64,000 nt of DNA from Pomacea canaliculata (Eukaryota > Mollusca > Gastropoda > Architaenioglossa > Ampullariidae): assembly GCF_003073045.1 (NCBI RefSeq), contig NC_037601.1, positions 10,279,807-10,343,806 on the forward strand, given 5' to 3'. This document shows, piece by piece, positions 4,225 to 61,738 of this stretch; position 1 is the first letter of the stretch; each line of letters starts with the position of its first letter. The notes under the pieces were generated by a model. That model worked only from the letters and a program-made list of their open reading frames with translations. It was not told the DNA's origin and searched no databases. Made by a program: the position numbers and the translations under genes.

Positions 4225-6526
4225 TTAACTGACGTATAGGCTGTGCTCAACCCTTTCCCTTCTGCCATTCTCTTGATCCCTAGCACCAGCTAACCAAGTT
4301 GATGCATGCAAGTCAGCATCCGTAGCTTCAGGATAACTTTTTCTTGCAGCATCTAAAAATAGAACAAATATAAGAATATGAGGTCTGCATAAAAAAGTAA
4401 TCACTTAATTGTAGGTTACTGACCCTAAAATCCAGAATATAATGTGAAACAAAAGAGGTACAAGCAAATTATACTGATATGTAAAGTGGCATAAAAATTT
4501 AAAGCGTTATAAACAGAAAGGAACTACAAGTGGAACTGCATTTGAATTTCAGTTAGAATTTCTATAGGCAGAAAAACTCTGGAAATTCTAATTTCAAAAA
4601 CAATCCCAATACATGGGAACTGTAAAGATGTCTATAAACTGTCATTTTAATTCCTTTCTACACAGTGTTAACCAGCTGATTAAAGGACTACAGTCACTAG
4701 AAATTGCGTAAACATGTGTCCATATTTTATTTTGGCAATGTAATTCAATCACAATAAAATGAGGTAGGGACAGTTCTCCAGGCCTGATTTATCTTCCTGT
4801 CATGTTTTTTTTTTTTTATGACTCATGAAAATTCTTGTCTGCACCTAGCAGAGTCAAAGGTTAAGGTTCATAACTAAAAGATAAAGAAACAATCCAAACA
4901 GTCCTATTTTATGACAGGCATGTATTAATGTACCGTATACACACACACACAGAGTCAAATATTTAAATCCTTACCCTGAACTGTTTGTAAAATGAAGGGG
5001 TGGTTCTTGAGTCCCATTGAAGTTGTAAGATCAGGCCAACTCAGTTGAAAATAGCACAGATAGAATGCCCCTCACTACATGCTTTAATGTGAAGCCCGAC
5101 GCATCACCGAATGGCATTCCTGAAAACAGACAAAAATAAATACACATCATTTAAAAAAAAATTGCAGTGGGCAACATTATAATACCTGTTATGACAACTA
5201 GTATTTAAAGACACCCCCCCCCCAAAAAAAAAGACAGCAACAATTCAGGAAGTTTCATACAACCAAGCAAAAGTGGGTACAGAAAATTTACTATCTGCTC
5301 TAATCAATGCCACCATAACAATGCCTTTATTACTTTTTAGTACTGCAAACATGTCATTAGTTTTATACAATGAATGGTATGGTATGGAAACCTTTAAAGG
5401 GAATCAGATAAAAAGATTTGACTCCTCCTACTAACAAATCAGAATAAAGCACATACCAAGCATGTCCTTTTTATGGGTCTGTCTTCATATCTCCCTCAAG
5501 ACTCTCTACATCTTCTGCTGATTGTTAAGCGAGACTGGAACCCCTCTGGCAGATTTCCCGTGTCATTTGCCTTTCCTGTTCTTGTTCCTCCATCCATGTA
5601 AACATCCTTTTAAGGTTGTTTGTATCATTCTTCATCTCTTCCAGAAGAGACAGTTGTTGCATCCCAACTTTCTCTAGTTTAGTTCTAACCTAAGAACACA
5701 ATAGCAGAAAACATGTAAAATAATGATCTTTTCTAGCTTTGCTATAGTTCACAATGCCTGGAAAATACCATTAATTTTGGTTAATCTTTACCATTTGTCA
5801 TATCTATCTGATATGTGATCCATATTTGTTTCAAATTTTTTCACTATGGCAAAAGGCTGGGATTTTCCGCTTCCAGTTTAACTCATAAAAGCACTGTTCA
5901 TAACTCTTGGCCAAGGGTAAGAAGAAAAAAAAGCTAAAATGATTATAAACAAAATGGCTTTAAATTACCTTCCAAGGGTTATGGGTCTTTATGCTGGCAG
6001 GCTGAAAACCAGACAATGGAATCGGAAGGCGCTGGGGGTGTGAAGGCAAAGGTGAAACAGTCCTTTTTTGAAAGCTGCTACTTGGGGACACCCTTGAGAT
6101 GGTGCCAACCACTAGTGGCAAAGAGTATGGCAATGGTGGTGGACATTGCTGCATAACTGAATGGTCAGCATATAGTGATTCCTCGGCATCCTTCTCTCCT
6201 TCGCTGTTAGCTGTGCATCCCTGTGTCAAATGAATACATTTGCATAAACTTTTTTCAGCTTAGTACATTTAAAACTGTCAGCTGCTGATAGGTTGTTAAA
6301 ATTTTTTTAAAGAACATTTTATTGTTATTGTACAAAACTTGTTTATCACTGTATGCTATTTTACCAGAAAGAGGACACAGCCTTGTGTCCCTACATGATG
6401 TCCACCAAAAAAAATTCCCTAAAATTAAGCAGAGGAAATGAAAACAGACCGAAATCTAATCGGAGTTATCCGTATCCTTTTTGGTTGAGTGGGAGCATTT
6501 TTGTCATCACTCTCCACCTCCGACAT
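4225..6526 (-). pseudogene. decayed DUF4806-like gene in TIR element copy 1
   Basis: Minus-strand exon-like blocks with good splice sites. Exon A has a start codon at 6526 and reads MSEVESDD. Exon B is 6220-5969, 84 codons, Pro/Ser rich. Exon C is 5689-5457 and begins with a helical, Glu-rich coiled-coil segment (LEKVGMQQLSLLEEMK). Exon D is 5119-4975, containing TLKHVVRGILSVLFSTELA. Exon E is 4352-4225, containing SYPEATDADLHASTWLAGAR and a stop. Exons D and E follow the DUF4806 pattern as I remember it: VRRIL..LFTNELA..YN, then FPEAT..E....WL..A..R. Stop codons in exon C, plus an in-frame TGA and a needed frame change in exon D, mean it cannot encode one full-length protein as annotated. 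Exon A to B phase is also unresolved. Family assignment is from memory. Confidence 0.5.
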
Positions 6527-10248: not shown

Positions 10249-12556
10249 TTAACTGACGTATAGGCTGTGCTCAGCCCTTTCCCTTCTGCCATTCTCTTGA
10301 TCCCTAGCACCAGCTAACCAAGTTGATGCATGCAAGTCAGCATCCGTAGCTTCAGGATAACTTTTTCTTGCAGCATCTAAAAATAGAACAAATATAAGAA
10401 TATGAGGTCTGCATAAAAAAGTAATCACTTAATTGTAGGTTACTGACCCTAAAATCCAGAATATAATGTGAAACAAAAAGAGGTACAAGCAAATTATACT
10501 GATATGTAAAGTGGCATAAAAATTTAAAGTGTTATAAACAGAAAGGAACTACAAGTGGAACTGCATTTGAATTTCAGTTAGAATTTCTATAGGCAGAAAA
10601 ACTCTGGAAATTCTAATTTCAAAAACAATCCCAATACATGGGAACTGTAAAGATGTCTATAAACTGTCATTTTAATTCCTTTCTACACAGTGTTAACGAG
10701 CTGATTAAAGGACTACAGTCACTAGAAATTGCGTAAACATGTGTCCATATTTTATTTTGGCAATGTAATTCAATCACAATAAAATGAGGTAGGGACAGTT
10801 CTCCAGGCCTGATTTATCTTCCTGTCATGTTTTTTTTTTTATGACTCATGAAAATTCTTGTCTGCACCTAGCAGAGTCAAAGGTTAAGGTTCATAACTAA
10901 AAGATAAAGAAACAATCCAAACAGTCCTATTTTATGACAGGCATGTATTAATGTACCGTATACACACACACACACACACAGAGTCAAATATTTAAATCCT
11001 TACCCTGAACTGTTTGTAAAATGAAGGGGTGGTTCTTGAGTCCCATTGAAGTTGTAAGATCAGGCCAACTCAGTTGAAAATAGCACAGATAGAATGCCCC
11101 TCACTACATGCTTTAATGTGAAGCCCGACGCATCACCGAATGGCATTCCTGAAAACAGACAAAAATAAATACACATCATTTAAAAAAAAATTGCAGTGGG
11201 CAACATTATAATACCTGTTATGACAACTAGTATTTAAAGACACCCCCCCCCCAAAAAAAAGACAGCAACAATTCAGGAAGTTTCATACAACCAAGCAAAA
11301 GTGGGTACAGAAAATTTACTATCTGCTCTAATCAATGCCACCATAACAATGCCTTTATTACTTTTTAGTACTGCAAACATGTCATTAGTTTTATACAATG
11401 AATGGTATGGTATGGAAACCTTTAAAGGGAATCAGATAAAAAGATTTGACTCCTCCTACTAACAAATCAGAATAAAGCACATACCAAGCATGTCCCTTTT
11501 TATGGGTCTGTCTTCATATCTCCCTCAAGACTCTCTACATCTTCTGCTGATTGTTAAGGGAGACTGGAACCCCTCTGGCAGATTTCCCGTGTCATTTGCC
11601 TTTCCTGTTCTTGTTCCTCCATCCATGTAAACATCCTTTTAAGGTTGTTTGTATCATTCTTCATCTCTTCCAGAAGAGACAGTTGTTGCATCCCAACTTT
11701 CTCTAGTTTAGTTCTAACCTAAGAACACAATAGCAGAAAACACGTAAAATACTGATCTTTGCTAGCTTTGCTATAGTTCACAATGCCTGGAAAATACCAT
11801 TTATTTTGGTTACTCTTTACCATTTGTCATATCTATTTGATATGTGATCCATATTTGTTTCAAATTTTTTCACTATGGCAAAAGGCTGGGATTTTCCACT
11901 TCCAGTTTAACTCATAAAAGCACTGTTCATAACTCTTGGCCAAGGGTAAGAAGAAAAAAAAGCTAAAATGATTATAAACAAAATGGCTTTAAATTACCTT
12001 CCAAGGGGTTATGGGTCTTTATGCTGGCAGGCTGAAAACCAGACAATGGAATCGGAAGGCACTGGGGGTGTGAAGGCAAAGGTGAAACAGTCCTTTTTTG
12101 AAAGCTGCTACTTGGGGACACCCTTGCGATGGTGCCAACCACTAGTGGCAAAGAGTATGGCAATGGTGGTGGACATTGCTGCATAACTGAATGGTCAGCA
12201 TATAGTGATTCCTCGGCATCCTTCTCTCCTTCGCTGTTAGCTGTGCATCCCTGTGTCAAATGAATACATTTGCATAAACTTTTTTCAGCTTAGTACATTT
12301 AAAACTGTCAGCTGCTGATAGGTTGTTAACATTTTTTTAAAGAACATTTTATTGTTATTGTACAAAACTTGTTTATCACTGTATGCTATTTTACCAGAAA
12401 GAAGACACAGCCTTGTGTCCCTACATGATGTCCACCAAAAAAAATTCCCTAAAATTAAGCAGAGGAAATGAAAACAGACCGAAATCTAATCGGAGTTATC
12501 TGTATCCTTTTTGGTTGAGTGGGAGCATTTTTGTCATCACTCTCCACCTCCGACAT
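10249..12556 (-). pseudogene. decayed DUF4806-like gene in TIR element copy 2
   Basis: Equivalent of the copy 1 relic: start codon at 12556, exon B 12250-11998, last exon from 10376 to the stop at 10249-10251. Exons D and E are essentially identical to copy 1, including the in-frame TGA after FSTELA, so that damage predates the divergence of the two copies. Copy 2 also has its own changes: one extra G at the end of exon B shifts the frame, and one extra base near the end of exon C. It is therefore more damaged than copy 1. Whether transcripts are made is unknown. Confidence 0.5.
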
Positions 12557-15628: not shown

Positions 15629-16505
15629 ATGGCTGACAAGCGGAAGTACAGGATGTATCCTGACATTAAGGAGGAGGATCTCTTTAATGAGGTGCATGAA
15701 ATTGTCATCCAGAAAGTTGGTCATGTCCAGATTGTTAAGGGCAACTTCAAAGACATGACCAAAAATGCCAGGATCTTCGTGTGTCACTGTGTGAGTATTG
15801 CTGCATGCAGACTGAATGTGTTTGGTGCAGTCAGAACCAGATTGCAAGAACCAGTTAAATGTTTAAAGTTGTCAAACCATTTTTGGAAAAATAATTATTG
15901 CAAGAAGCAGGAGCATGCCACACACGTTGCCATAGAAATTAAAGGCCAAACTTTCAATGTGTGGCGGGAAAGAACAGTTGTACCTGGAGGAGGAAGACAA
16001 GGGTACTTGTCAAGTCAAATGGAAACGATATTGATTCCAGTGCCGGTGTAGCTTTATGCAATTTATAATTTTGGTTGCTGTTAAGAAACCAAAGGCAACA
16101 AATTAAATCATACTATGATTCTTAAACCCCATAAACTGATTTGCTTCAAATTTTACTTGTGCAGCTTAGTAGTTTACTTAGTACTTGTAGCACTTTGGGA
16201 TCCACATACAAATACACAAGTTTGTCAGGTCCTATGTTTGAGGGAAGGGATGTATATAAGCTAAAAAAACCTTTGACTTTATTTCTGCAGATTCAACTGA
16301 TGAACCCACGATGTGTGTACATCTGTGATGGGTCAGAGGAGGAGGCTCATGAGATCACCAACAAGCTGTTGGAGCGTGGTGTTCTAACCAAGCTCAAGTA
16401 TCCTAACAGGTCCTGAGTGAAATCAGTTTGAAAGCTGTAGTAGTAACTTAGGGAGATTTGGGATTAGAAACTGCTGTTTACATCAGAAAAGTTGTCAGGG
16501 TTATT

Positions 16506-16539
<34 letters not shown>

Positions 16540-19500
16540 TCTGATATTATTTTTCCCAGTTTGCCAGTGCCAAATCTCCTTTACATATATGATGTATGAT
16601 GTAAAGACAGCACACAAATCACAGTGATGCAAAGAGCAGCACAGATTTCTTGTACTAAAAGTTGGTGTCTGGATTATTTTTGTAAATAATTAATGCTTAA
16701 AGGTTCAAATTTAGATTTACATGCCATCTTAAACCTTTAGAATCTTAGGTGATTATTTTTATATTGTTGCTTTATTATTTTGCCTGTGTCATGCAAGAAG
16801 TGAAGCACCTGCTGGATTTATTCTAGCTACCTGTGCCGCACAGACCCTAGTGATGTGGCACGAGTTGAGTCTAAGACCTATATTGTTACTGCTGACAAGT
16901 ATGAGGCTGTGCCACACACCAAACCTGGAGTGGAGCCCATTTTAGGACATTGGATGAGCCCTGACGATATGCAGAAAGAACTAGATGAGCGTTTTCGTGG
17001 TTGCATGGCAGGTAAGTTTTTGGGTTGTTTTTTTTTATTTGTCTGATAGGTTTTCATCTAGGTAACATCTATACATAATTTACTTGCTTTTGGAGGAACC
17101 TTTTAGATGAAAATGCAGATTAAATATCTGTAGCCAAATATTTGTGTGAAGTTAAATGTGGCGCTGACATTTATTTATAAATTCCTGTTAACTACTTATT
17201 ATTTGAACCCTATAGAATCTGGCAGAATGTAGCCATTCACAATTTGTAATCTCTTGATTTTGCAATGTATTTCACTTTCGATTGAATCTGGCAACTGTAA
17301 TCGTGCAGTCTTGTCTCTTGAATTTGCAGTGTAAGTCACTATAGATTGAACTTGGCACCTGAAAACATGCCGACTGGTCTCTGGAAGCAAGATTAGTTTT
17401 GTATTCAAATAGGATTCAGTTTCGCTCGTGGTGCACACTGCACATCAAAGACAATGAAAGACTTTTTAAAATTTAGCTCATTTAGCAAAAACACTATGCT
17501 CAGTAAAATAACAGTAATTAATATTGCATAATGTCCTTTTTTGAAGCAAGTCCTGTCACTTTTAGTCATTGGGGAGAGAGATGTAAGAAGACATTTTTCT
17601 TGGGGCCTGCTTTTTGTGAGAGTGGAACCTATATCCTCTTCTTTATCTTTCCCCACCCTTTAACAAGTTAGATCTATTCAACATCAGTATCCATTTGGGT
17701 CTAACTCTAACCCATTCAACAGCAGAGTCCATTTGCGAATGTACATTGCACGCCTCCAGCAGGTGCAGACACCAATGCTGTAACCACTCGGCTATCCACT
17801 TTCCCATTATGCCCTTTTTTGGGCAAATTACTCAAAGCATTGACAGCTAATAAAGGAAGGATTATGCAGCAGATTGTTCATAGGGGCCTATATAGTTTAA
17901 GCCAATATGTTGGCAGACTTCATAAATCAGTCAGTGATGCAGTGAGGAACAGAAGACGTGGAAGAGATGAATGAGTTACTTATATTGAATTTGGTTTTCA
18001 GGTCGCACTATGTTTGTCATACCCTTCAGCATGGGGCCTGTTGGGTCACCATTATCAAAAGTTGGAATACAAGTAACAGATTCCAACTACGTGCTGCTGT
18101 GCATGCGCATCATGACCCGCGTCACACCCAAAGTTTGGGATGTATTGAAAAGTCAGGAAGAAGATGACTTTGTGAAGTGCATTCACTCTGTAGGACTTCC
18201 TCGACCTGTGCAGCGTGAGTATAGCTCATTGTACATGCACTCCACTTGCATCCTTCGTCACCAGCAGATGTTACTGCTGGGCTATTCTGTCACAAAAAAC
18301 ATGTCAGAGTGATAGGGCCCATTGTTTACAGCTGCAGTAATTCTGTGCAGGTCCTGTAAAGAACCACTGGCCTTGCAATCCAGAAAAAGTCATGATTGTG
18401 CACTTCCCAGATGAGCGCAAGATCAAATCTTTTGGTAGTGGCTATGGTGGGAACTCTCTTCTTGGAAAGAAGTGCTTTGCCCTGCGTATTGCCAGTGTCA
18501 TTGCTCGGGATGAGGGCTGGATGGCAGAGCATATGTTGGTATGTTTGCCCTACTCATTTTAGAATGTTGCAGCAACTAGTTAACCTAGAGGTACTGCTCT
18601 ACTATACTATGAAACGCAAGTACAATAAATTAGAGAATATTTGGACAGTGTTTCACCCTGTCTTTGGTGTTCAGTCTGTTGAAGTATCTTTTCAAAAATG
18701 ATAAAAATGATAAGGTCACAAGTACACGTGAAATCAGCCAGCAGGCAGTAAAGTTGTTCTTTGTGAGCGTAGATTATGTTTATTCAATTTTACATGGTGT
18801 TTAAACATTACAATCCACTAAATATCAGACATAACATTACCAGATTGTTCATAAGCCTATATCAAAATTTTCCTTTAGAAATACGATTTAATAGACTTAA
18901 TTTCCTTTGGATTTACAAGAACGTGCAATTTCACAATGGTTTAAGGTTGGAAAAGTTTCAAGCTGGTTTCCAGGAGCACTTTACTTTTTAAAATTATAAC
19001 TTAAGAAATTTCGAATCTGTTTATGTACTGCTTTCTAATAATTTTGAAAAGAAGGAAATTCCATGTTATAAATAATGTTTAGGTTGAAGCTGTTATAGTT
19101 TACTATAGTTGCAGGTAAAAATACAGGTTACAATTTAGCAACATGCGAGCATGACAGATTGTGTGACTAGATTTCAGGCATCACTCCACCAGATGGAGAG
19201 GAAATGTTCATTGCTGCTGCCTTCCCCAGTGCCTGTGGAAAGACAAATTTGGCCATGATAACACCTGGACTCCCTGGATTCAAGGTCCAGTGCGTAGGTG
19301 AGTAAATGAGTTGTTCATTGCGTAATGTCTCACAAAATTAAGGGTATGATGAAGCTGTGTAGGCTTTAAGAACGGTACAAAACAGTATTCGATGCAAGAT
19401 GTTACATTTTTTTTCCAGATTATTAAGGCCAGAAAGTTGGTTAATATGCTCAGCAAGTAAAGAGTGCCTAAAGATATATTCTTAAGTCTTATGCTGGTCC

Positions 19501-22500
19501 TTTGTAGCATTTTGATTCATAAAATGATTATCTGAAACTTTCATTGATCATTGAGCTACATGGTATATCATCTAGGTGATGACATTGCATGGATGAGGTT
19601 CAACAAGAAAGGTGAGCTTCGGGGAATAAACCCAGAAGCAGGATTTTTTGGTGTGGCCCCAGGAACCAACTGGAAGACTAACCCAAATGCTATGAAGAGC
19701 TTCCAGGCCAATTCCATTTTCACTAATGTGGCAATGACAGCAGATGGTGGCTACTACTGGGAGGGTCTGGAGGATGAGTATCCTCCTGTGAGTGATCTCT
19801 GTTTTTTCAATTCTATGCAGCTTCTTGAAGGTATTTGTCACTGACATAGGCATGTGTACATTGAAAAAAGTTCCACAAGATGGGATTTGTAGGCACATGA
19901 GAAATGTATGTAATGTATCGGGCTCCTTGCACTGCTCTTCCAGAATAAGCTTGTGGGTGGGTTAGTTTTATTTTGAATAAATGGTAGTAGTTACTAAAAG
20001 ACTGTTAAAACATTCAAGCTGCAATAACAGCATAAAGTTGTGCCTGTGTTTAGGGAACATGCATAATGATGTTATGTGGGTATCACATGTAAAATTGGGT
20101 CAGTGTTGTGTATCACATATAAAGCTGCTCCAATGTTGCGTGGGTATCGCATGATTTAGTCCCAGTCATCTCTTTCTCTTACCCATCACTTTTGAAAGCT
20201 TAGGGTTCCTTTTCCTTTGTACTTTGGTAGCTGAGAGCAGATATTTTGACGATAAACATGATTTTGTTTTAGTAATAATAATGGGAACTTGTAACGCACA
20301 ACATCATGACCAAGATAGGTCGCACTCAATGTGCAGACCAATAATGATAAATGAACGATAACAGCCAGTGGACAGTGAGGTACATCTAGGCACACTGAAC
20401 AAAATGAAGATATAAACAGTGTAAGATTGAGTATTTGCATGATTACCATGACAGACAGTATTACAAGGTAACTCTTGTATTATTGTTTGTCATGTTAACC
20501 ATCAAGTATGAAAAGGGCATTTTACTTTACACTGTGTAATGAGACGTTACAACTTCTCTTTTTGTGGACAGGATTTTTGTTGTCTACAATGCTGTCAGAC
20601 ACAAATCCTCTGTCTACATAATTATGACAGACAATGATGTAAGACAAACTTATTCTCTGTATACAGGGAACAGCTATAACAACATGGCTGGGGACTCCAT
20701 CAGCTGTGGGATGGTCAGATACTCAAGCCGCTCATCCAAATTCTCGCTTCACATGCCCTGCTAGCCAGTGCCCGATCATACATCCAAAGTGGGAGGATCC
20801 AGAAGGGGTGCCAATCAGCGCCATCATCTTCGGTGGGCGCAGACCCAAAGGTAGGGTAACCCTAATCCAAAGATGAGGTGAGCCTGACCTCAAGATAAGG
20901 CAACCCTAACCCATAGATGATATGACCTTAACCCCAAAATAGAATGGCAAAAGTAGTGCTTTTTGCACTTGTACCCTTTTCTTTTTCATGGCTTTTTTCT
21001 TTTTAAAGAAAACAACTTTGTGCCATTTCTTGGTTATGAGGCATGGGTCATGTTGGCTTGACATAATAATTTTTTACATAAGTGATTACAAATTTTTGTC
21101 AACCATTTAAAAAATATTAAACTTTTCAGTGACTATGTGCATGATCCACAGAAAATCCAAAAGTAGGGGTGGAATAAGAACCAGCTCTTTGTGTCAAAAT
21201 TTACTTTTCTCCATGGGCAGGAAATGCTTTCATTGATCATATTTGTGAATAAACTATGACTGTCATTCTATCCTTCTGATAACCTTTTAAAGGACTGCAT
21301 TACTGCTTCTGTGTAAGTGTAAACCATGACAACCAGTACCACTGATTGGTTTCACCTTTTTAGTATCACTTATTGGCAGGTGTTCCGTTGGTGTATGAAG
21401 CCTTCAACTGGGAGCATGGTGTCATGATTGGTGCTTGTGTCAAGTCAGAGGCCACAGCTGCAGCAGAGTTTAAGGGTAAGTGTTTAACAGGCTGGGGGGT
21501 ACTATTATTTTGAGATCAAGTTTGGCAGCAATATGCATGCATACAATAAAAGAATAGTGCATTTTGCACTTTTGCAAAAATCTCATCTAAACCATGCAGC
21601 TGTCATCACCAAAGTATTGTCAAATTGTCTGGTTCAAAAGATTAAATGCAAGCAATCATGACAAGCACAAAGCTTATGTAGTTCTGCTTTACAACAGGCA
21701 AGACAATTATGCATGACCCCATGGCTATGCGGCCATTCATGGGCTACAACTTCGGTCAATACCTGCAGCACTGGCTGGACATTGGCAAGGTGCCTGGCAG
21801 AAAGGTGAGAGCTGTGTTGATAGAGACCCATTGTTGAGTACCTGGCAGGAGTGGACTTAATATTTGACAGGAGGTCACAGTAAAGTGCCCAGCATTAGCA
21901 GACTGGTAGACAAGATCCTTGGAAGTATTAGACATGAGCAAGTTGCCCAGGGGGTGTAGGATAGGTGTTTTACACAGAACCAGCAACTAATGCTTTATCC
22001 AGGCAAGACAGCCAGCCCTGTAAAAAGATGCCATATGCAGATAAGTTGCCCTTGAGTACTAGACACATGGTAAGCAGGGAATTCAGAAGATAAGATCATT
22101 CTTGAAAGTTAACACAAGACTCACTCTCAGACTAGCAGACTGTTTTCTATGTGTTTCTGGACCCATGGGCTTGTTCACTAATGTCCCCCTTAAGACCATG
22201 AAGGTCAGGGTTAGAAGACTTTTGATGTCAGTTATTGAAAAATCATTTATTCAAATGATTACATAAGATTTTCCAATGCGACAAAAGTTCCTCCACGTGA
22301 TTGCACCATACTGTGTGTTTTTTTCCGACAAATAATTGCATAACATTTTCCCAGCAGGTTTGTTTCTTCAGATGATTGCATGATATTTGTCTACCTGACT
22401 AGAGTTCATTGAAGAATTAATGGCCAGTTAAGTTTAAACCTTGGACGCATCATATGCCATCTTTAAATTTTTAACCATTTCTCCCAACAGATTTGTTCCA

Positions 22501-27420: not shown

Positions 27421-30400
27421 ATGGCCGTGACGTCGCTGAGAGTGGCCGGTGCTCTACTGCTGGCCCTCATCGCCAATGCTGCGCTTCTGTCCGTTCTGCT
27501 GGTGCAGAACGCTAGTCGCCACTCTGCACACCACAGCGACAACATCAACGACAACGCCTTGGAACTCATCTACCACAAGGAGGGCGACGTCGGCTCTTAT
27601 TCAAACTTGGTGTCAGGTGGCGGCAAGGCCGGGCAAAGCACTACGGGGCGTGTCATGGGGGCAGCGCGTGACGTGCAGACACAGAAAGTCCTGTTGTCTG
27701 GAGCAACGAGAGCCGACAGCAATGGAGGTGTCAGAAGTGTCAAAGACATGAGCGCCGATAACATTGGAAGTGGTGGAGTGAAGAAGGTCGTCCATGTCCT
27801 TTCACGTTCACAGAGAAGCACAATTTTGAAAGTCGCCGACACGGGCCGTTACCTTAATGACGTCATTGCGTCTCTGACATCTGCTGAGCTTCAAAGTCTG
27901 GAACCAGGCGTTGCAAAGGTGAGCTGTGTGGTGTGACAGATGGGAAGATGCGTGAATCTGACGAGGCTTCACTGCGTGTGACTAGGGAGGTGACGTCGTG
28001 TGCGAACAATCTCCGTGAGTGTTAGTAATATGTAATCTGTCAATATGAACTGCAAAATAGTGTGTGTGTGTGTGAGAGAGAGAGAGAGGTAGAGAATAAT
28101 TACCTGTGTGATTTTGACAAAATGAGCTGTACCACGAACTAATATCCCTGGACTGCTAGCAGACGATTTTTTTCCAGTTAACTGCTAAAACGAGGCATTA
28201 GACGACATCTATCTAATCATCTTCGTGCATCAGGTTGCACATAAGGCACATGTCGATCGGCTGAAACCCGCTCTAGGTGACCCCATGTCCAGCCCTTTCC
28301 TTTCCTCTCCCTTTCCACTGTTCTTCTCCAAGTTTCCTTTGGGCGGCCTCGTTTTCTTCGGCCGTCTGGAGTCCATCATAGGTCGATTCTGGAGAGGTCT
28401 GCTGTCTGCTGGCGGAGCACATGTCCAATCCATCGCCAACGCCTTCGTTGAACCTGCGTGGTGATGGACTCGGTTTCAATTCTTCGGTAGAGTTCTTTGT
28501 TGGTGATGGTATTTGGCCAAAAGATGTTAAGTATGCGCCTGAGGCATCTGTTTTGGAAGATGTCAAGGTTGTTACTGATGGTTTTGGTCATCTTCCATGA
28601 TTCTGATCCGTAAAGAAGGGTGCTGATCACGTTTGACTTTAAGATTCTCAGCTTGATCTTCTGGCTGATGTTTTTTGCCTTCCATGTGCTCCTGAGTGAG
28701 GCGAAGAAACCCAAAATTAATTAACCAAAGTACGCGATTCACACCTGCGATCAACGAGCGCCGCTAGCAGTGTCCTACGTCACGGTGGTACACCATTCAC
28801 AACGTTGTGAGCCGTCAACGCCAATCACAACGACAGTTCGGGTTATGCGGACGTTGAAAGTCCGGACTTTCTTGTACTAAAATCGCAGTTTTCAGAACCA
28901 CATGAATGCAGACTGTCAGCGTCTGAATAACACGAACTGTCGTTCATCCTCTGTCTCTCTCTCTGACTAGTGTTGACTGCTGCCAATGCTGTGAATGGCG
29001 CACTGTTACGGCGCTCGTTAATCACAGCGGATAATAAGTATGGATGGGTTTTGGAGGCTGAAATTTACAGGTTAGGCTTGTATCGCCTATATCTATTGAT
29101 GTCTGAAAAAAACTGCAAACTATTCAGGTTGGTCTTTAAAACTTTTGTTGAAACATCAGTCATGCTATTGTGTGCTAAGTATTGGGTACTGGCTGGCGAT
29201 GAACAGTTGGTGTGCACTGCACTGCACTATGTTAATGAATTATCAGCTCTTAGTACCTAGTGACTGGTGATGACCATCACATTGCTTTACGGTGTAATAA
29301 TGTTTGCAACTGGCTTGTGGTCAGTGCAGCTTGCGTGATTCTTGCTCAACATTTACTGATGACGAAGTAAGGGTTAACCTTGATCCTGTGTGTTTCCTGC
29401 TAAATACTTAATTCCTTATGACACGTTTAGGTTAGGATTAGCCCTGATGTTGTGTGTTTCTCGCTAGATATATTTGTGATCACATGGTACAGACGCTGGT
29501 ACCGGCGCTGGTGGGGCTGGAGAGTATGGTGCTACGCGAGCTGGAGCGATTGCACGCCGTCAGCCTCAACCAGGAGCTGCGCATAGAGCAGCTAGAGACT
29601 AGGCAGCTGGACCAGCAGGACCTTCTGGACAGCCTCAGCCTCGCGCGGTAAACAATCTGTCTGCCTATACCTGTTTTTTGTATGCTGTTTATTAAGCTGG
29701 CTGGTTGTCTGTCTGAATGGCTGTATGCCCTAAAGTCAGTCTGTGCAAGTGGTCCTCTGGTTGACCGTTTCCTGCCTTTCTGGCTATCTGTCTGTTAGTG
29801 TGCCCCTCTTACTGACTCTTCCTGTTGTAGTCTGATGTATTAGTTACACTGACAAAATCTTTTCAAAGAAAATTAAGTTGTTCTAGTCTGTTTACGGGAG
29901 AAAACTCGTAACTTTAGAGGAAGTTGTCATCCTGTTTCTTTTCTTTCGTTTTCTTCTTTTCCTCCTCCTGAAAGTACCATGTTATTTTTATGCATTTGTG
30001 TTTTTGTTTCGGTCCGCATCTAAGCAGGAAAGAGCCAGTGGAGAACCAGAAGCAGGAGCCGTTGGAACATGACGTCACCGCTGGATTATCAGGCAATATG
30101 TCTGTGCAGAAAGTGGCATCAGAGCGAGGCTCAGAGCTGTACTCTGCGGTACAAGAAGAAACTTGGTCTGGAAGTGGTGAAGGCGTCACTTTAAGCCCAC
30201 CAGCAATGACAACTCTTGCAACAGCGACAACAACAAACGGTGACAACGCGATCATCAACCACATTTATGAAATCTACAGCTCCCTTACTTCTCTGGAGCA
30301 CAAGGTGAGGGTTAGCTGAATAGTGGGGACCAGGGCCGTGCTTAGGGGCAGGCAGACGAGGCATCTGCCTAGGGCCCCGCACATTTCATTAAATAACAAC

Positions 30401-46305: not shown

Positions 46306-49300
46306 ATGGCACGACAGAAACGGCACACCATACCTGAAATACAAGCATTTTTGAAACCAGAGGTAAACTTGAAAAAAGCAATTCTTTCATGATTTTCACT
46401 TTCTGTATTTTGTTTTCTTGATTTGTTCTCATTTGATTCCCTCATTTCATGTTCTTCCTGTTGTCCCAGTTTGCTTATCGTAAGCAAAACAATGATAGTG
46501 AACAGAGATGCTTGTATTTAGATGTTTGATCTGCTAGGCCCAGTTAGTAATATATAAATCAGATAAAGTTTAATCAGGAAAATGTAAGTCCAAACCCAGG
46601 TAATTATTTAATAATAAAATTACTAAACATGCAGTAGTGCTGCTGAAAAAGGAAAGAATAAGATTTTGTAGATTATCACGTAGGAAAAGTAAATAAACTA
46701 CATGATGCATACGAGGAGGCATTTCCACTCACGATAGCCTTTCGTTATCTAAAGAAGCCTAATTTTAATCGATTCCAAACAAAAAAACGTGCATCATCCG
46801 GTTCATTTATAGAGCTGTATGTCATTAGCAGCACATAACTTGATCACGAGGCACTCTCTTCTGTTTGGTCTGCTCATCTCCACCAAATTATTTGTATAAC
46901 TCAACATTTCAGCAATGTCATCTCCCATAACCACATCACACTTGTTAACTACTCCTAATGAGTAGTAGTGGAGGTTCTAGAATAAATATCTTCCCAGTTG
47001 ATGGTACTTCATTAGCTAATGTGACCTTCAAATATGAGGTTCTGTTTTAGGTGTCTTGTTCAGTTGTATATCTGTCAAGTTGGTCCAGCCATATACACAT
47101 TACCATGTAATTTTGGAATAAAATCAGAGAACATGAAACAATGGAAGATTAGATAACTTCCTGCCCTTACAGCAATATATGTTTCCATTTTAAGGTTTAT
47201 GCCATAATAAAACTTAGTTTACCACTAATTTAAAGAAGATATAAAAGGGATTAAAGGTTTCAATTGGTTAGATTATATATTTAAAAAAACAGTTTGAATG
47301 GTTTAAGAAATGTAATCTGCTTTGCAATTTACTATTAAAGGCAGACTGAAAACATTGACATTATGATCCCCAAATATACTTTATTGCAGATACCATTACA
47401 AAAAGTTCTTAAATGCTTTTATTGGTTCTTGACAGTATGATTCGTGTATGATGTGCTGTGGTTTCTATGGCAACAACTTTGGTCAGCCAGTTTGTAGCAC
47501 ATGTCATCTTTTTCTATTTTCTATCAACAAAGAAGAAGGAGAAGGCGAGGTCTATACAGAGGTATTTTGTTTAAGTAATTAGTTATCAGTACTGAACTAG
47601 ACATTAGAACAGTTATTAAAAGACAATAACAGTGGGATAAAGTGTTTTTTAATTTACTGCTTAGATGATCAAATACTGGACTACTTTAAAGTGATCCATT
47701 TTCTATGTATGTAGTCATTACTTTACTGGCACACTGCTCACCACCACTATGACACTAACCACCAGGACGTGTTGCCTCTAGAACAGTTAAACAGACCTTT
47801 AAGATGTATCTGTTAAGCATAGGAAATTTAAAACTTTTTAGTTTTTATAAAGTTATATATGTAATTCAGCGGGTTACTTCAGTTAATTTTTTTTTGAATA
47901 GCCAGATAGCTAAGCCTCCAATACACGTCTATTTTAAATAGCCTGATAGCTCAACCTACAAATTTATTTTGCAGAAAGCAGATTCTGATGACTCTGGTAA
48001 TGAGGAGCCTGTTGCTGAAGCAGATTTTTATGCTAGCAGTGATTCAGGAGCAAAGGTAGTGAAAGCTGTGGTGCATAAGACGGACAAACTGGCTGAGAGA
48101 CTTGGCTGTCTGACTGTGGTACGTGATAGGGACCAGGTGCCTGAAGGCCTTGTTGATTCTTTGCCTCCAGAAGGTATGTGACCAAATAGGCATAAGTATC
48201 TTATAGGTTTTGGGAAAAAACAGCAGACTTCTTATGAACAATAAACATTTGTTAAAAAGAAACATTTAAGATTGGTTAAAGAAAAACATTGAATGGCTGA
48301 TGTAGAGATTAGTTAAAGGCAAACTGTTGTAGAGATTGGGTGGAGGTTAAGGAAGAGATGCAGACAGACTAAGAGGGAAAAAAGAATTAAAGTTAGCAAA
48401 GACATTACTGAATTTAAAATTAGGAATGTCTTATTGCTGAACTAGTGAACTGCAAACCATAATGTCAAGAAATTAACTGCAATAATCAATCTTAAGTTGC
48501 TTTGGAGAACTTCTGTGCCAGCTTAAGTACTCTCACCTTGCAGACACCTTTTCTTTTTAGCATTGCCATTTTCAAGTTTTTTTTTCTCCTTTTTATGGAA
48601 TCATGAAGATAAGTTTGCAAATGCTTGAAGTGGGTTTTTTTTCCTTTAGGAACATTAGCTTCTACTCAAGTGTGCTGACCAGTCCATATATGACCTACTT
48701 ATTCACAACATGTTCACAACATCATCTTAGGTACCAAATGTTGCAAGGTGGTTTTAAGTGGTTGTAATAGTTTCTTTGCTGGTCTTTTTCACCTGTAGAA
48801 TGATGATGTTAGAGTAATGGCTGAGTTCTGGTGTCTTTTTCTCATCCAGTGCTGTTAGTAGTGTTCAAATACCTTGATGACATTTCAAAATGGACAGCGG
48901 GCCAAGTTTGCACTAGATGGCGCCAGATTCTGGATGCAGAAATGTCACAGTCCAAGTGGAAGCATTTTATAAGTCTGCGCTGGCCACTTTTTCAGCCACA
49001 ATTCAAGGTGACTTGCTGGAAAGCCATCTACACACAGCTGTAAGCTATTTATGTGCAGCAATAAATACATGTGCAGCTATAAATACTATTGTTGTCTTTG
49101 TTTATCTTTTGGGGTTAGGCTATGGTTAAGCTACAAAGGCAATTCATAAGGCACATGTGTACTATATTACCATAGATATTTAGATATCATTTGTTAATTT
49201 GTTAATACACAAGAGTGGTTTATTCCACCTACCAAATATTCGGTCCGTGGGCACGCTAACGCTTGTATTGGTGTTTTCCGACCAAATTCAATTGGAAGCA

Positions 49301-52300
49301 GCCAAGGTGTTAAGGCCAAGTGAAAAGTGCAGTAAAACCATTTTTGGAACTCCCATTCAAGGGCAAAATAGATGATATAAAAAAAAAAATCAGCAATATC
49401 CTGTGAAACGTGATTTTTTCCGGGGCATGTCAGGCCTTAATATTTTAGTAGCCAGATAAAAGTAAAGGTCGTTATGTAACTTTTCATTTGTGGAATGAAG
49501 TGTTAGAGACTTACTGATCTCAGAGCTATATTTTTTTTTTGTCAGTGCACGTCTCCCATCCCTGTCTGCTTTTTCTTTCCCTACACTCAAATGGGTCAGG
49601 TAGCCATTCAGCTGCTGTGCTTCACTGTCTGCTTTTCCTTTCCCTGCACTCTATCTGGTTAGGTAGCCCTTCAGCTGCTGGGTTCACTGGAAGATTTATG
49701 ATATGCCAATTGGGTATTGAACAAGCCAGTGTATGTGTGTGTGTGTGCCTTTGGCAGTCTTCTAACCCTGTGGCTGTCCACTTCCACTTTAGTATCCAAC
49801 TAAATTGTTACATCGCCAACTAATGAACCCTGAACATTTTCATATTTTCTTTCTATGGATGATTATTTTACTCAAAATGCTCAGGTTTTTTTTTTTTTAA
49901 TAGTGATTATTACCAGTCGTCAAAATATCAAACTGGCCACATGTTTTAACAAACAAGCTTGGTAAGCACAGCAGTTTGCACACAAGGCCAAACAATTGTT
50001 ATCTGTCACTGCAGACTTTTTGTGGTCATTTGCTCAGATTTTGGGAAGTAGTGAACTAAACTCATCCATTTCAAAATAAGTTTCACTTTTGTTGGTTTTT
50101 AAGATTTGTTGTGTGAGTGTTAGTAAACAATGCTGTCTCTACTTGTATATTGTATAGACTAAATAGGTGTACATGTTAGTGGTACATAAGGTTTTACAAA
50201 GTAATAATAAGTGAAGATTTGCCATAAAGCTGGCAAAATAATGATCATTAAATTATTTGTGCAAGTTTATAAGATGCTGGATTATCCAGTCAGTATAAAT
50301 AAGTCAATATGATGTTTGTGCTTGCAGTATATTGTTTTAAATGTACTGTTTGTCCATTGATACAAAAAAAAGCAGTATTTTTGACTAGGCATATAATTTT
50401 TGTTGACATTTAACTAGATGGTTGTACTTGACATATAATGCAGTGATGTATATTTCAGATTGGAGAGTTCTCCTTGTCGTTATTGCTTGGACAGTATGAT
50501 GCTACAGGTGAATATTTTTGTCTCTGTTGATTTAAACTATTCTAGATGTAGAAATTGATTATAAAATCTTTGTGGTTTTGAGATCTGCCATTAATCCACT
50601 GAACATGTAAAACAATATATAATTTAGGCATAAATTTGATTTTTCAGGAGCCCATATTTCATATCCAAGTGTCAGTTTTTGATCAGTAGTTCTAGCCAGT
50701 AGATGGGATAATGTCAGTCTTATTACCTACTTTCAGATATAGCAAAATACCTGATTGGTTGACTATTTCAGTTCATTAAGGAAGGTAAATTCATAGTAGA
50801 ACAATTCTGAAATGTGCCTACAGTTTCTTCCCTTATTTCATTCATTTACGCACATCGCAATGTGGTTTTTGACATGACCCAAAATGGGAAAAAGTTTGCT
50901 TTCGAGGATGTGACAAACTGAGAATTGGTTAATGAACTTTCCTTGCATATTTATAATCATTTTTCTTGTCAAATAGAAAGCAAAATCAGCTTCAGCTTTT
51001 TTTGTATGTTAAAATCTGATTACACTTGTGAAGTCTACTGCATATTTTCTGATGATCACTTATGGTTGCTGTTATTTCAGAGCACACCACCAATTGAAGA
51101 GAATTCATGGCGGCATCGCCGTCTTCGAAGTGAGTTGAAAACATTAAAATCAGATCCACCTGAAGGCATCCAGGCTACACCACTGGATCGGCACTGTTGT
51201 CACTGGCAGGCGTCCATCACAGGACCACAAGGCAGCCCCTATGAGGGTGGACTTTTTCTCCTTTATCTACAGATTCCGCAGAGGTTAGTGTCTGGGGCTG
51301 TATGCATGAATGCTTGTGTGTGTGAATGTTTGTGAGAGAGAGACTTTGATGTGTTGAGGACCCTGACAGCTTGTAAGTTTGCTAATGTATAGGCTTGGAC
51401 TTATTACCTGCATCCGGCCAGTTCGGAAGTTTTGCAAGTTCGGAAAACAAGACAAGCTGCTGAGTTCTGGAATTTCTTAAGCTTATCAATGAGGAACTGT
51501 GGACAGCCAGCAAGAAGAGAGTTGCAATAGTGGAGACAGAACAAAACGCTTCACATGAGGGAGACTGGTGAACCACTCACAGAATTTATCTGCCAATACC
51601 CAGTGACTCTTGTGTTCCCAATATCCTCTGTGGGAACATTGACATGCAACAGGTTCTTTCACCACATGATTCTTTAGAGCATAATCACATTTGGACAGAA
51701 CAAAATATTGATTGAAGCCTTAATGCTTATTGCATCAATTATCCTGTTTACAGTTTATCACAAAATTCAATTAGTTGTGTGTGGTGAGCTCTGTGAATAT
51801 TCTAAATACGTGCATGGATGGCATGTTTAACATTTGACATTGAACTAACTGCCACACACATTGAGAGACTTCAGAAGCTTCAGCAGGCAGGATCATTGCT
51901 AGTACAAAGGCCTCTTTAATGCATCACAGCAGTTCTGCACTAACTTCATCACAGGCCTGCAAAATAGAAAGGTATTGTGTACAACATCCTGTCACACACT
52001 AGTCAACACTGCTCCAGAGAACTTTCAGCGGATTGTATCTGTGTAAGAGAGCCAGTTCTCTCTGTTGACCACATGCTCCTAGTTTTTTCCTCCCTTCTCA
52101 AATGGACACCAACAAAAAGGGTTTGGGATTTTGGCATTCCAGAATGCAGCTCATATGCAATGGAACCCTCTATCTCGCTTGGGAAGGCATGAGTCTTCTG
52201 AAAGTGGCTGAAGACACATATTTATCAACTAAACTATTGATCATCAAGCTCACCAGCACCACACTTTCCTCTCTGTTCTCACTCTCTTTTGCTTTCCTAT

Positions 52301-53437
52301 CATTCTTGAAGCTTCATTCTTCCTTTGCACAATGAAAATCTTCATGATTGATGGATTACATAATTGTGAAAACACGTTGTGTGTGTGTTTCTAACATATC
52401 TGTTATAAAGGAAAAATCTGTTTTGATTGTTACAGCTACCCTATGCGACCACCAAAGGTCCGTTTTATCACAAAGATTTTCCACCCAAACATCAGCCGTC
52501 ATGGAGATGTGGGGCTGGACTCCATCCATCATAACTGGAGTTTAGCTCTAACTATTTCCAAAGTGAGTATCATAACTGGAGCTCTGTTTCCAAAATGAAT
52601 ATTGCTTTACAGATGGTGGTACTCCATTCTGTGATCTTTAGTTAATGCAGTCTGTCTTTTCTGCTTTTCTGCCCTGTCAAAGTAAATCTCATGTTACAAG
52701 ATTGAACATCAGTCCGTTAGAATGTCACAGCACAGTGTCATGTTCAGAAACTGTGTGATAGGTGGGATGTGATGTCAGTCTAGTACCCTGGTTTTAAAGT
52801 CAGTCTTTGAATACTGCCTGTGACACCACCATGCTGTGTTATGCCAGTCCTCTGAGCTTCATTGGAAGGGTGCAGCACCAGCCAAAGTTTTCAGTGGTTA
52901 TAGCATCTGGCAGGATGAACTTAATGTCAGTAACCAATCTCTACTTTTGCAATTACTGTATGCATGCACGTACTATAAAAAACAGGACACTGAAGTCCGG
53001 AAATTTTATATTTATGGCAGAAAACTGAATGGTATGAAGTGGATATCATTGCATTTTCTCTGTTTTTATACTTCAGCAAAAGAGCTCTGATTATGATTTT
53101 GTGATTGATTGTGTTTGTACATTATTTTTAGTATCCACACAGCCTCAGCTTCTTTAAAACACTCTCTGCATATACAAACACATTCATATAAACTATGTTG
53201 TTTAATACTCAGCATTAACATAATATAATAGTATTAGACTCTCGCTGTCGACAGGTATTAATCAGCATACAGTCCCTGCTGACGGACCCATATTGTCATG
53301 TGTGCATGGAGCCCAGTATTGGAGCCTTATACCGAAAAGCCAAGTCAGAGTTTGAGCGCATTGCCAGGCTATGGACGTGGAAGTTTGCCATGCATGACTA
53401 TGTCATGCCCACAGATATAGACCTAAATGGAGTTTAG
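46306..53437 (+). CDS. zinc-ribbon / F-box / catalytically altered UBC (E2-like) fusion protein
   Basis: Eight exons: 46306-46362, 47436-47561, 47975-48173, 48850-49039, 50459-50507, 51081-51283, 52436-52562, 53255-53437. They total 1,134 nt (377 aa), all phases consistent. Residues about 20-45 hold a C-x2-C-x12-C-x2-C zinc motif (CMMCCGFYG..VCSTC). An acidic linker follows. The F-box is about 124-165 (LPPEVLLVVFKYLD, then VCTRWRQIL). A small Cys pair (CRYC) follows at about 196-200. The UBC fold spans about 217-365 (GPQGSPYEGGLF, YPMRPPKVRF, HPN at 291-293, NWSLALTISKVL). The position equal to the E2 catalytic Cys is Gly 301 (HGDVGLDSI, where UBE2D has NGSICLDIL). It should bind SKP1 through the F-box but not form a Cys thioester there. 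I know no vertebrate protein with this order. Confidence 0.88.
49557..49690. repeat. two-unit tandem repeat, about 65-70 bp
   Basis: CTGTCTGCTTTTTCTTTCCC recurs as CTGTCTGCTTTTCCTTTCCC, each followed by a GGTAGCC..TCAGCTGCTG segment. It lies in intron 4 of the F-box/UBC gene. Confidence 0.65.
51380..51600 (-). mobile_element. CR1/L2-like LINE fragment (minus)
   Basis: Minus-strand frames resemble the conserved LLAGCPQ..LQKVQNSAARLV region of CR1/L2-type LINEs, seen better at 56.2 kb. Broken, short, in intron 6 of the F-box/UBC gene. Confidence 0.5.
51950..52270 (+). mobile_element. LINE 3' fragment (plus)
   Basis: Broken plus-strand frames resemble the extreme C-terminus of the same LINE type (AP..WN.LP....... 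V..FK..LKTHL pattern, here ending in WLKTHIY). It is in opposite orientation to the adjacent minus fragment, so the two pieces were inverted or inserted separately. Confidence 0.4.
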
Positions 53438-53519: not shown

Positions 53520-53525
53520 AATAAA
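53520..53525 (+). terminator. poly(A) signal of the F-box/UBC gene
   Basis: AATAAA begins 83 bp after the stop. A second AATAAA is at 53964-53969. Confidence 0.6.
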
Positions 53526-55499: not shown

Positions 55500-56975
55500 A
55501 ACAGCTCACACATTTGTACAGTCTGGGAGCAATAATAATAAATGCAAAACTTGTAAAGCACATACTCACACTCCTAAGGAATATGCTCTTAGTGTTTAAG
55601 AACAAAAACGAAACATGGGCAGCATATGAGGACAGGAACACAAATAACATATGAAGTATAAAAGAATAAACAACAGTGTTAAACAAACAATAAAATAAAT
55701 ACAGAAAACACAAAGGAACCAAATAGCAAGAACAAGAGCTGAGAGTAACATGACATTGCAAAAGGAAGGGTGTGAAAAAGACTAGCATTATGGGAAAGGG
55801 TGTTAGGAGTAATGGTTACGAAAGAGATGCATCTTCAGTGTACGTTTAAAAGATTCAATAGTGGGTAGGTGGCGGATATGGAAAGGGAGAGAGTTCTATT
55901 GTTTTTCTGCACGATAACCAAAAGTCCTGTGGCCATATATTGTTGTTTTGGTGACACGAAGAGTAAGAAGACAATCATCAGATGAAGAGCAGAGTTGTCT
56001 AGCTGGGACGTAAGGGAAGAGCAGTTCAGAGAAATAATCAGGGAAGGTGCCAACAAAGAAATTAAAACACAGCATGGACAGTTTGTACTGAATGTGAGAA
56101 CGGATGGGAAGCCAGTGTCGATAACAAAGGTGGCATGGTCCTGTTTCCGAGCTCTAAGCACCAGACGTGCAGCAGAGTTCTGAACTTTCTGGAGTTTGTG
56201 AAGAAGGTATACAGGGCAGCCAGCAAGCAAGGAATTGGAGTAATCAAGTCTAGATAAGACAAACGCACAGACAAGAGTGTTAGTAGTGCGCGTAGACAGA
56301 ATGTGACGGATGGCCCTGATCTTGTGTAGTTCATAATAGGCAGACTGACTGACAGTCTTAATTTGTTAATCATAATAGATGGACAGCTGTGACTTGTTTA
56401 GCAAGAGTCATGTCTGCAGTGACAATGAATCCTAGATTCCTGATGGAGGACGCAAAGGTGATGTTGGTTTCGCCCACCTTGATGTGACTTGGTGGACAAA
56501 CGAGTGAAGATGGATTTCTTTTTCTCGAACATAGGAGTGCTTCCGTTTTATCATCATTGAGTTTCAGTTTGTCTTAAGTCTTTGACTTCATTAATACAGA
56601 CTTCTATGGTGCTGGTAGCAGAGTGAGGCTCAGTCAGTGGAGTGGAGCAGTACAGTTGCGCATCATCAGCATATGATTGACGAGAAACGTTGAGACTGGA
56701 TGCAAGATGAAAGTGGCATTATATACAAAATAAACAGAACTGGGCCGAGTACTGAACCTTGAGGGACGCCACAAGAAAGTAGAGCAGGGCGAGATGTTTG
56801 ACCATCAACAAACCCAGTCTGCGTCCAATCAGTGAGATAGGAGTTAAACCACGCTAGTGCAGGTCTAGAAATCCCATAGAGGGTGTGTAGTCTATGAAGG
56901 AGCAGAGAGTGGTCCATGGTGTCGAATGCAGCAGACAGGTCATGTAGAGTTAAGGCAGAAACATCACTGTCAGGG
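55500..56975 (-). mobile_element. CR1/L2-like LINE, 5' truncated
   Basis: Minus-strand reading: DHSLLLHRLHTLYGISRPAL, then CGVPQGSVLGPVLF (RT motif B) and a YADD-equivalent site near 56670. Then comes a degraded thumb region, LLAGCPVYLLHKLQKVQNSA at about 56230-56170, and a C-terminal NSLPFHIRHLPTIESFKRTL segment ending near 55805. A 3' UTR follows to about 55500 with an ATTATTATTG-type tail. The frame is broken several times. The 3' UTR recurs at 61.8-62.08 kb. Confidence 0.85.
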
Positions 56976-57239
56976 CAGATATTATGTCGGTAGTGCCTTT
57001 AATTAAAGTAGTTTCAAAAAAAAAGAAGTAATTAAAGTTGCAGTGTTGTGAATACACTGAGGTGTGTAAAACTGCAGTCTGTGACTGGCAGTGTAGTGAG
57101 TGCCGTTTGAGCATCTTTTAGGATGGGACAGATTAGATGAAGTTCATAAAGAACGTCTTTTAAAGAATTAGCAGAAGTTTATAAATAGCACCATTAGTTA
57201 AAGTTTATAAACAACATACACCGATCGACATTTATTCAA

Positions 57240-60307: not shown

Positions 60308-60328
60308 ACCCAGTAACAGACGCTGACC

Positions 60329-61738
60329 ATGTCAGCCATGCTGTCGTTTGTCCAGGACAAGCTGCTTGTCATCGAGGCAGTGAAGGCCGGCCGTGAAGAC
60401 AAGGTGCAGGCCCTATTAGACAGTGGCTGTCAACAAGACGCAGTGGATGCGGATGGCCGCACAGCGCTTCACTGGGCATGTCAATACGGTCATCTAACCA
60501 TCACATGTCGACTTCTCTCCACTGCTGCCATGGCTGTTTGCTCGACATGTGGGGGTCGGTGGAACTTGAACGCTCATTCCGCCCTTCACGTGAACTCTAT
60601 CTCAAACGTTCACTTGCAAGCCAGCAGGCCTGCAGTTACAAACAAGGCGACTCTCGTAACCGTTTCTCGCAGAGGTGACTCGCAGTCGTCTTCCCGTGGC
60701 AGGAAGCCGATGTCGCCAGGTGGTCGCGAGGCTGATCAGCAGACGGATATACCTGGCAAGTGCAGCTGCCTCAAGACCAGAGACTGGCAGCTGCGTGACG
60801 TCATCAACAGACGAGACGCCAAAGGTCAGACCCCGCTGCACGTGGCATGTAACTTCCGTCGCGAAGACGTGGCCGCCTTCCTGGCTACTCTCCCCCTGTG
60901 TGACCTAGACGCACGAGACGAGCAGGGCCATACGCCGCTTCATCGAGCCGTGCACGCCAATCTGGAGACGCTGGCGGCCTTGCTGTGTGACTTGGGCGCC
61001 GACGTGCACGCACGTAACGCCTTGCTGTGGACGCCCTTGCACGAGGCAGTGCGCACTGGCAATGAGAACGTAGTGCGCATGCTGGTGAACAGAGGCTGCG
61101 ACCTCAACGCTGTGACGCACAACGGTATGACTCCTTTTTTAACGGCCGTCTTTTATTACAGGATCGCCCAGCGCGCTACCTACAAGACTCTTGATGGCGT
61201 GTTGAGACACTTGATTGAGGCGGGTTGTCGCCTGTCGCAAGGGGACTCTCAGTGGACCCCACTGTCAGCAAGCATCGCCATCGACAACAGCATTATCGCC
61301 TCTCTTCTTCTGTACAATGGCTGTCGTTTCGAAAGGTGTTGTCCCACTTACAGTCGGAGCATGCTTGTTGAGGCTTTCTCTCGCTGCGAGCCTTTGGTGG
61401 CCAGACTGATGGTGGAATGTGGCTACCAGCCTAATAACGAGGAGATGGAACTGTGCTCACGAAGGATTCCAGCCTTCTCACCCATCTTTCTGCGCTTGCC
61501 TGTTGCCCATGCGCAGACGTCTTTGAAGGAGAAATACCAGCTTCTGCAATGGCTGCGGCAGCGTGCACACAATGCATGCTCGCTGATGGAGCTGAGTCGC
61601 ACGGCCATCCGGCTGGCCTTGAACCACGCCGCAGACGATGCATCCATCTTGAGGCGCATGGCACAGTTACCACTTCCCTCAGCTCTTCTGGATTTCATTC
61701 TTCTGCAGAAGTTCACCGACGACTTAACAATGAGCTGA
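60329..61738 (+). CDS. ankyrin repeat and SOCS box (ASB) protein
   Basis: A 469-aa protein from one uninterrupted coding exon. Two ankyrin-like repeats at the N-terminus (DADGRTALHWACQYGHLTIT) are followed by a non-ankyrin linker at about 70-160. A block of clear ankyrin repeats follows (DAKGQTPLHVACNFRREDV, DEQGHTPLHRAVHANLET, WTPLHEAVRTGNENVV, NGMTPFLTAV). The C-terminus has SLMELSRTAIRLAL and LPLPSALLDFILL, matching a SOCS box that recruits Elongin B/C. A Cul5 substrate-receptor role is inferred from family knowledge. The linker splitting the repeats is unusual; it could be an insertion specific to this lineage. GC content is higher than the surroundings. Paralogue number within ASB not assignable by eye. 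Confidence 0.9.
   Translation: MSAMLSFVQDKLLVIEAVKAGREDKVQALLDSGCQQDAVDADGRTALHWACQYGHLTITCRLLSTAAMAVCSTCGGRWNLNAHSALHVNSISNVHLQASRPAVTNKATLVTVSRRGDSQSSSRGRKPMSPGGREADQQTDIPGKCSCLKTRDWQLRDVINRRDAKGQTPLHVACNFRREDVAAFLATLPLCDLDARDEQGHTPLHRAVHANLETLAALLCDLGADVHARNALLWTPLHEAVRTGNENVVRMLVNRGCDLNAVTHNGMTPFLTAVFYYRIAQRATYKTLDGVLRHLIEAGCRLSQGDSQWTPLSASIAIDNSIIASLLLYNGCRFERCCPTYSRSMLVEAFSRCEPLVARLMVECGYQPNNEEMELCSRRIPAFSPIFLRLPVAHAQTSLKEKYQLLQWLRQRAHNACSLMELSRTAIRLALNHAADDASILRRMAQLPLPSALLDFILLQKFTDDLTMS

Follow-up and report, generated by a model that had tools for sequence, protein, structure and literature searches.

The gene on the forward strand at positions 46306–53437 of the window, the whole 64,000-nt stretch of Pomacea canaliculata DNA that was analyzed, is very probably the snail orthologue of the Drosophila gene for Morgue. 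On the basis of its architecture and of the marks that it shares with the published protein, we put the probability of this assignment at about 95%. The gene itself looks real, with domain matches far beyond chance. Its architecture is already known and named and does not represent a new fusion: the initial annotation could point to no named protein with its domains so arranged, but Morgue has both this arrangement and the glycine at the catalytic position. The snail gene is a clean instance of a protein that is unusual yet already published, and its use is modest.

The gene model comprises eight exons and seven introns, all of them GT-AG and with every junction in phase when splicing is inferred from the sequence, giving an open reading frame of 1134 nt including the TAG and a predicted protein of 377 aa. 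Exon 1 (46306..46362) carries the start ATG and residues 1–19 and stays in phase at its donor (GAG/GTAAAC). Exon 2 (47436..47561, phase 0-0) encodes the C4 zinc motif, C23-x2-C26-x12-C39-x2-C42; exon 3 (47975..48173) an acidic linker and the start of the F-box (residues 62–127); and exon 4 (48850..49039) the F-box with Trp 142, 151, 164, 172, and 184. A linker containing C197xxC200 and an in-frame ATG ATG is formed by the 49-nt exon 5 (50459..50507). The UBC domain begins in exon 6 (51081..51283), has its core in exon 7 (52436..52562), where HPN 291–293 and Gly301 (GGG) are found, and ends in exon 8 (53255..53437) before the TAG. These eight exons lie on the + strand, as does a possible polyadenylation signal, AATAAA, downstream of the stop codon at 53520..53525, with a second one at 53964. 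The GC content is 0.40–0.51 in the exons vs 0.32–0.41 in the introns, two ranges that just touch. A donor at 49007 was rejected for exon 4 because the frame is lost with it; with the donor at 49039, both the frame and the residue numbering given initially are recovered. Right past this donor (49040–49065, + strand), a stop codon is followed by an AATAAA at 49060, and a shorter form containing only the F-box is possible.

When the 377-aa translation was searched with Pfam, an F-box-like domain was found at residues 122–156 (E 3.1e-9, 36.9 bits for a cut-off of 24.3), aligned over profile positions 2–36 of 47, and a UQ_con domain at residues 221–357 (E 7.8e-42, 142.6 bits for a cut-off of 27), aligned over positions 1–139 of 140, which makes it a full UBC domain. 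The NCBIfam search of the protein returned a single match, at chance level (E 0.08). The initial annotation had described a single in-phase 8-exon model that encodes a C4 zinc motif, an F-box, and a UBC domain of the UEV-like kind, with the catalytic Cys absent. This model was reproduced with its 7/7 GT-AG introns, the HPN motif at 291–293, and glycine at the catalytic position (Gly301, GGG), and the F-box and UBC matches do fall within one translation and one gene model. The spacing of the zinc motif is present as well, but the motif has no Pfam match.

A whole-genome protein search, in which only the best candidates were scored, found one copy of the gene in P. canaliculata, on contig C12 of the 24 contigs searched (440,159,624 bases). 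The best 6 of the 21 listed matches correspond to its own exons 2, 3, 4, 6, 7, and 8, and the remaining 15 to UBC domains elsewhere, at 36–57% identity. Exons 1 and 5 had no match in this search; exon 5 was matched in place by a separate one. For the F-box, the best relative elsewhere in the genome had an E of 0.0056 and covered query residues 3–47 only. Among viral contigs, 6 stretches fit the pattern and 0 were confirmed as relatives, and in the collection of genome contigs 13 fit and 0 were confirmed, as expected for an animal gene.

A 2002 report describes Morgue in Drosophila, and one from 2009 records it from Lophotrochozoa, Platyzoa, and Ecdysozoa (both cited in PMC3787007). In the published description, the C4 finger lies at the N terminus and its CX2CX12CX2C spacing is practically invariant, the F box in the middle usually carries five conserved Trp, and the UEV domain at the C terminus has Gly instead of the active-site Cys, a substitution that, according to the same source, is found in no other UEV (PMC3787007). 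In the snail gene model, a zinc finger (recognized by its spacing), an F box, and a UBC/UEV domain likewise follow one another in a single chain. The finger has the CX2CX12CX2C spacing at residues 23–42, Gly301 takes the place of the catalytic Cys, and five Trp (W142, 151, 164, 172, and 184) lie within residues 122–190, an agreement of count rather than of places aligned with fly Morgue. We propose orthology because domain order, finger spacing, the five Trp, and Gly all match the published marks. Mollusca is reportedly among the phyla in which the 2009 survey found Morgue. The snail protein differs from that of the fly by its shorter length (377 aa, where a fly C-terminal construct reaches residue 491) and by the position of the Gly, 301 vs 421 in the fly (PMC3787007), and its finger also fits the A20 register, as described below.

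Judged by its sequence, the UBC domain is a settled pseudo-E2 and not the product of a base-call error, as the changes extend beyond the Cys to other active-site positions and to the E3 loops. Its alignment with UBE2D2 (reference chain 6w9d_A, an engineered form) is gapless, with 69/146 identical residues (47%). The catalytic residue, Cys 85 in UBE2D2, is Gly301 in the snail, where the codon GGG is two substitutions away from TGT/TGC, and the changes D117V, N114Y, L119M, F62M, and P95L accompany it. We take D117, N114, and L119 of UBE2D to lie near the active site, and F62 and P95 to belong to loops that contact E3 ligases. K8S, I88S, L104I, and Y74F were also observed, while HPN, D87, A96, L97, K101, S105, and S108 are unchanged. 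By sequence, the HPN kept at 291–293 fits a UBC fold. The Cys is kept at the catalytic position in 12/12 other E2 loci of the genome that were fetched by place, a subset of its E2 genes.

Among the best 60 of 312 PDB matches, all were UBE2D-type E2s, headed by a plant UBC core protein, Arabidopsis UBC8, and UBE2D1-D3/Ubc4, and none was a UEV. The domain resembles the UBE2D (UbcH5) family in its gapless alignment and in the nearly identical position of one intron, but it is changed at C85, D117, N114, F62, and P95 and sits behind an F-box. This last intron lies, by eye, within 1 nt of the K101/V102 intron common to the three UBE2D genes of the genome, with phase 0 in the Morgue-like gene vs phase 1 in the UBE2D genes; the other intron within the UBC domain (codon 275, position 59 of UBE2D) coincides with no UBE2D intron place. 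The three UBE2D genes are clustered on one strand at C1:33539500-33567500, with equal intron places where these were read. UEV proteins such as MMS2 and TSG101 share with the snail protein an E2 fold without the catalytic Cys; the snail protein differs from them by having Gly at this site and additional domains. In the E2/E3 hybrids BIRC6 and UBE2O the UBC domain is active, and to our knowledge neither carries an F-box. Like the snail protein, they have a UBC domain joined to an E3 part in one chain (PMC13061254).

Other explanations can be given for this locus. The gene could consist of two transcripts, one for an F-box protein (exons 1–4, ending at the TAA past the exon-4 donor) and one for a dead E2 on its own, initiated at the ATG codons of exon 5. 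Read-through of the exon-4 donor does meet the TAA at once, with an AATAAA at 49060; exon 5 does carry an in-frame ATG ATG; and the exon-4 donor (GCT/GTAAGC) agrees with the consensus at 5/9 positions, fewer than the other six donors. The 2009 survey is also said to include a UEV-only form in an arachnid. However, every exon junction is in phase, and AATAAA is a common hexamer here: the + strand of the window has 66 of them, one per roughly 970 bases, and 7 fall between 46613 and 49060. We consider such a split very improbable.

An even smaller probability is given to a lineage-specific fusion that would resemble Morgue by chance. The match to Morgue is known here from published marks, and the position of the last intron, at most 1 nt from the UBE2D K101/V102 intron, would fit a local UBE2D origin. 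Against this, chance would have to reproduce the set of three domains and their order, the finger spacing, the five Trp, and the rare Gly; UBC identity to UBE2D2 is just 47%; and the intron at codon 275 is off the UBE2D intron places. That a sequence or assembly error hides a true Cys, and with it an active E2, is hardly credible: no evidence was found to support it, GGG is two substitutions from every Cys codon, D117V, N114Y, F62M, and P95L would be separate changes, and Gly is the published state in Morgue (PMC3787007). The orthology with Morgue is the reading that we retain.

What is reported for the fly protein gives an indication of what its snail orthologue might do. Tagged fly Morgue pulls down SkpA and K48-linked polyubiquitin (PMC3787007), and SkpA binding depended on the F-box in the pull-downs cited there. 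In vitro, chains are bound by the half containing the finger and F-box and by the UEV half, and best by the whole protein (PMC3787007). Over-expression of fly Morgue is lethal; the lethality is weaker when either the finger or the UEV domain is removed and is hardly affected by loss of the F-box (PMC3787007, Table 2). Mutants with Gly421 changed to Ala, Cys, or Ser retained lethality and the enhancement of cell death, and G421A was somewhat stronger in the midline assay (PMC3787007). For cell death in the eye, deletion of the UEV domain is described as causing little change in the Results of PMC3787007 and as weakening the effect in its Discussion. Fly Morgue may lower DIAP1, with a direct action not established according to PMC3787007, and its over-expression alters circadian light responses (PMC2789323, PMC9502492).

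By extension from the fly, the snail F-box would dock on SKP1, so that the protein could sit in an SCF ligase, and the N-terminal half and the dead E2 domain would hold Lys48-linked polyubiquitin. Snail Morgue would then not act as an E2 but as an adaptor keeping or extending chains on proteasome-bound clients, for which a death inhibitor of the IAP kind would be the precedent in the fly. We regard the odds for such a chain-holding SCF adaptor as even. The initial annotation had suggested that the protein could hold ubiquitin at an SCF ligase, an idea that agrees with the reported association of fly Morgue with SkpA and K48-polyubiquitin (PMC3787007). It had also attached weight to the Gly, which the over-expression data from the fly do not bear out, as replacement of Gly421 by Ala, Cys, or Ser kept the effects (PMC3787007). 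An SCF role is unproven even in the fly, since over-expression there is lethal almost without need of the F-box and tolerates replacement of the Gly. The snail protein shows a catalytic face altered at several places while the fold is kept, and these several changed positions may explain why restoring the Cys alone does little in the fly.

Morgue could also bring a deubiquitinase to its clients and spare them, with the finger and the UEV domain reading the chain. A two-hybrid link between fly Morgue and the deubiquitinase Ubp64e is reported and such a role is discussed (PMC3787007), but the authors of that work find it a poor fit with the reported lowering of DIAP1, and the snail sequence is silent on deubiquitinase recruitment. 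Between the two mechanisms, we favor the chain-holding adaptor and consider the recruitment of a deubiquitinase unlikely.

The C4 motif of the snail finger can be read in two ways by spacing, as C23-x2-C26-x12-C39-x2-C42 or as C23-x3-C27-x11-C39-x2-C42. A20 fingers follow the pattern C-x2-4-C-x11-C-x2-C, in which two adjacent aromatic residues come after the second Cys. The second reading, followed by F29 Y30, is in this A20 register; the Morgue spacing uses C26 and not C27. The snail finger aligns gaplessly to the A20 fingers of ZFAND5 and Rabex-5. The Pfam A20 model PF01754 had no match in the snail protein at E up to 10, and a PDB search with the finger gave 8 matches at E up to 10, including ZFAND5 (0.068 and 1.5) and Rabex-5 (0.22, two sequences) but also PKC-theta (0.068, equal to the best ZFAND5) and AreA (1.1 and 2.2). 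AlphaFold prediction of the exon-2 open frame (49 aa) from the single sequence had a mean pLDDT of 58.9 and was uninformative.

A small A20 model was built from 5 fingers, 2 from the PDB and 3 from this genome, with two controls: 20000 shuffles in which the Cys stayed in place, of which 19573 were reported, and 7843 open frames, of which 5776 were scored. The shuffles are 46 aa long vs 377 aa for the protein, which makes the comparison a rough one. With the HMMER composition correction, the snail protein scored just 7.4 bits, a value reached by 98/19573 shuffles and 19/5776 frames. The 19 frames were 4 copies of exon 2, 4 Pfam-supported A20 fingers (over the cut-off), and 11 others. Without the correction, the score was reached by 10/19573 shuffles (best-domain score) or 14/19573 (full score) and by 8/5776 frames, namely the 4 Pfam-supported A20 fingers (3 of them in the model) and the 4 exon-2 copies, with no other open frame of the 5776 scored reaching as high. 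That the Morgue zinc finger is a diverged A20 finger seems possible from these comparisons, though doubtful; in PMC3787007 the finger is said to match no previously identified ubiquitin-binding type and is likened to the Npl4 finger. If it were true, Morgue would have its F-box flanked by two domains that read ubiquitin and are both of known type, and would be an SCF receptor choosing its clients by the chain that they already carry.

Other features were observed in the window. A 473-aa open frame at 60317-61735 (+) contains ankyrin repeats, with a SOCS box at its C terminus (Pfam 2.5e-6), and encodes an ASB-like protein, likely another ubiquitin-ligase adaptor ~7 kb downstream of the Morgue gene. 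Frames at 16135-19841 (+) match GTP-type phosphoenolpyruvate carboxykinase (PEPCK_N twice and PEPCK_GTP once). Likely retroelement remains were found on the reverse strand, with a reverse-transcriptase match at 56669-56998 (2.2e-10) and a DUF6451 match at 28379-28720 (1.5e-7). Also on this strand, the open frames at 5963-6259 and 11975-12289, ~6 kb apart, are nearly identical and thus point to a repeated element.
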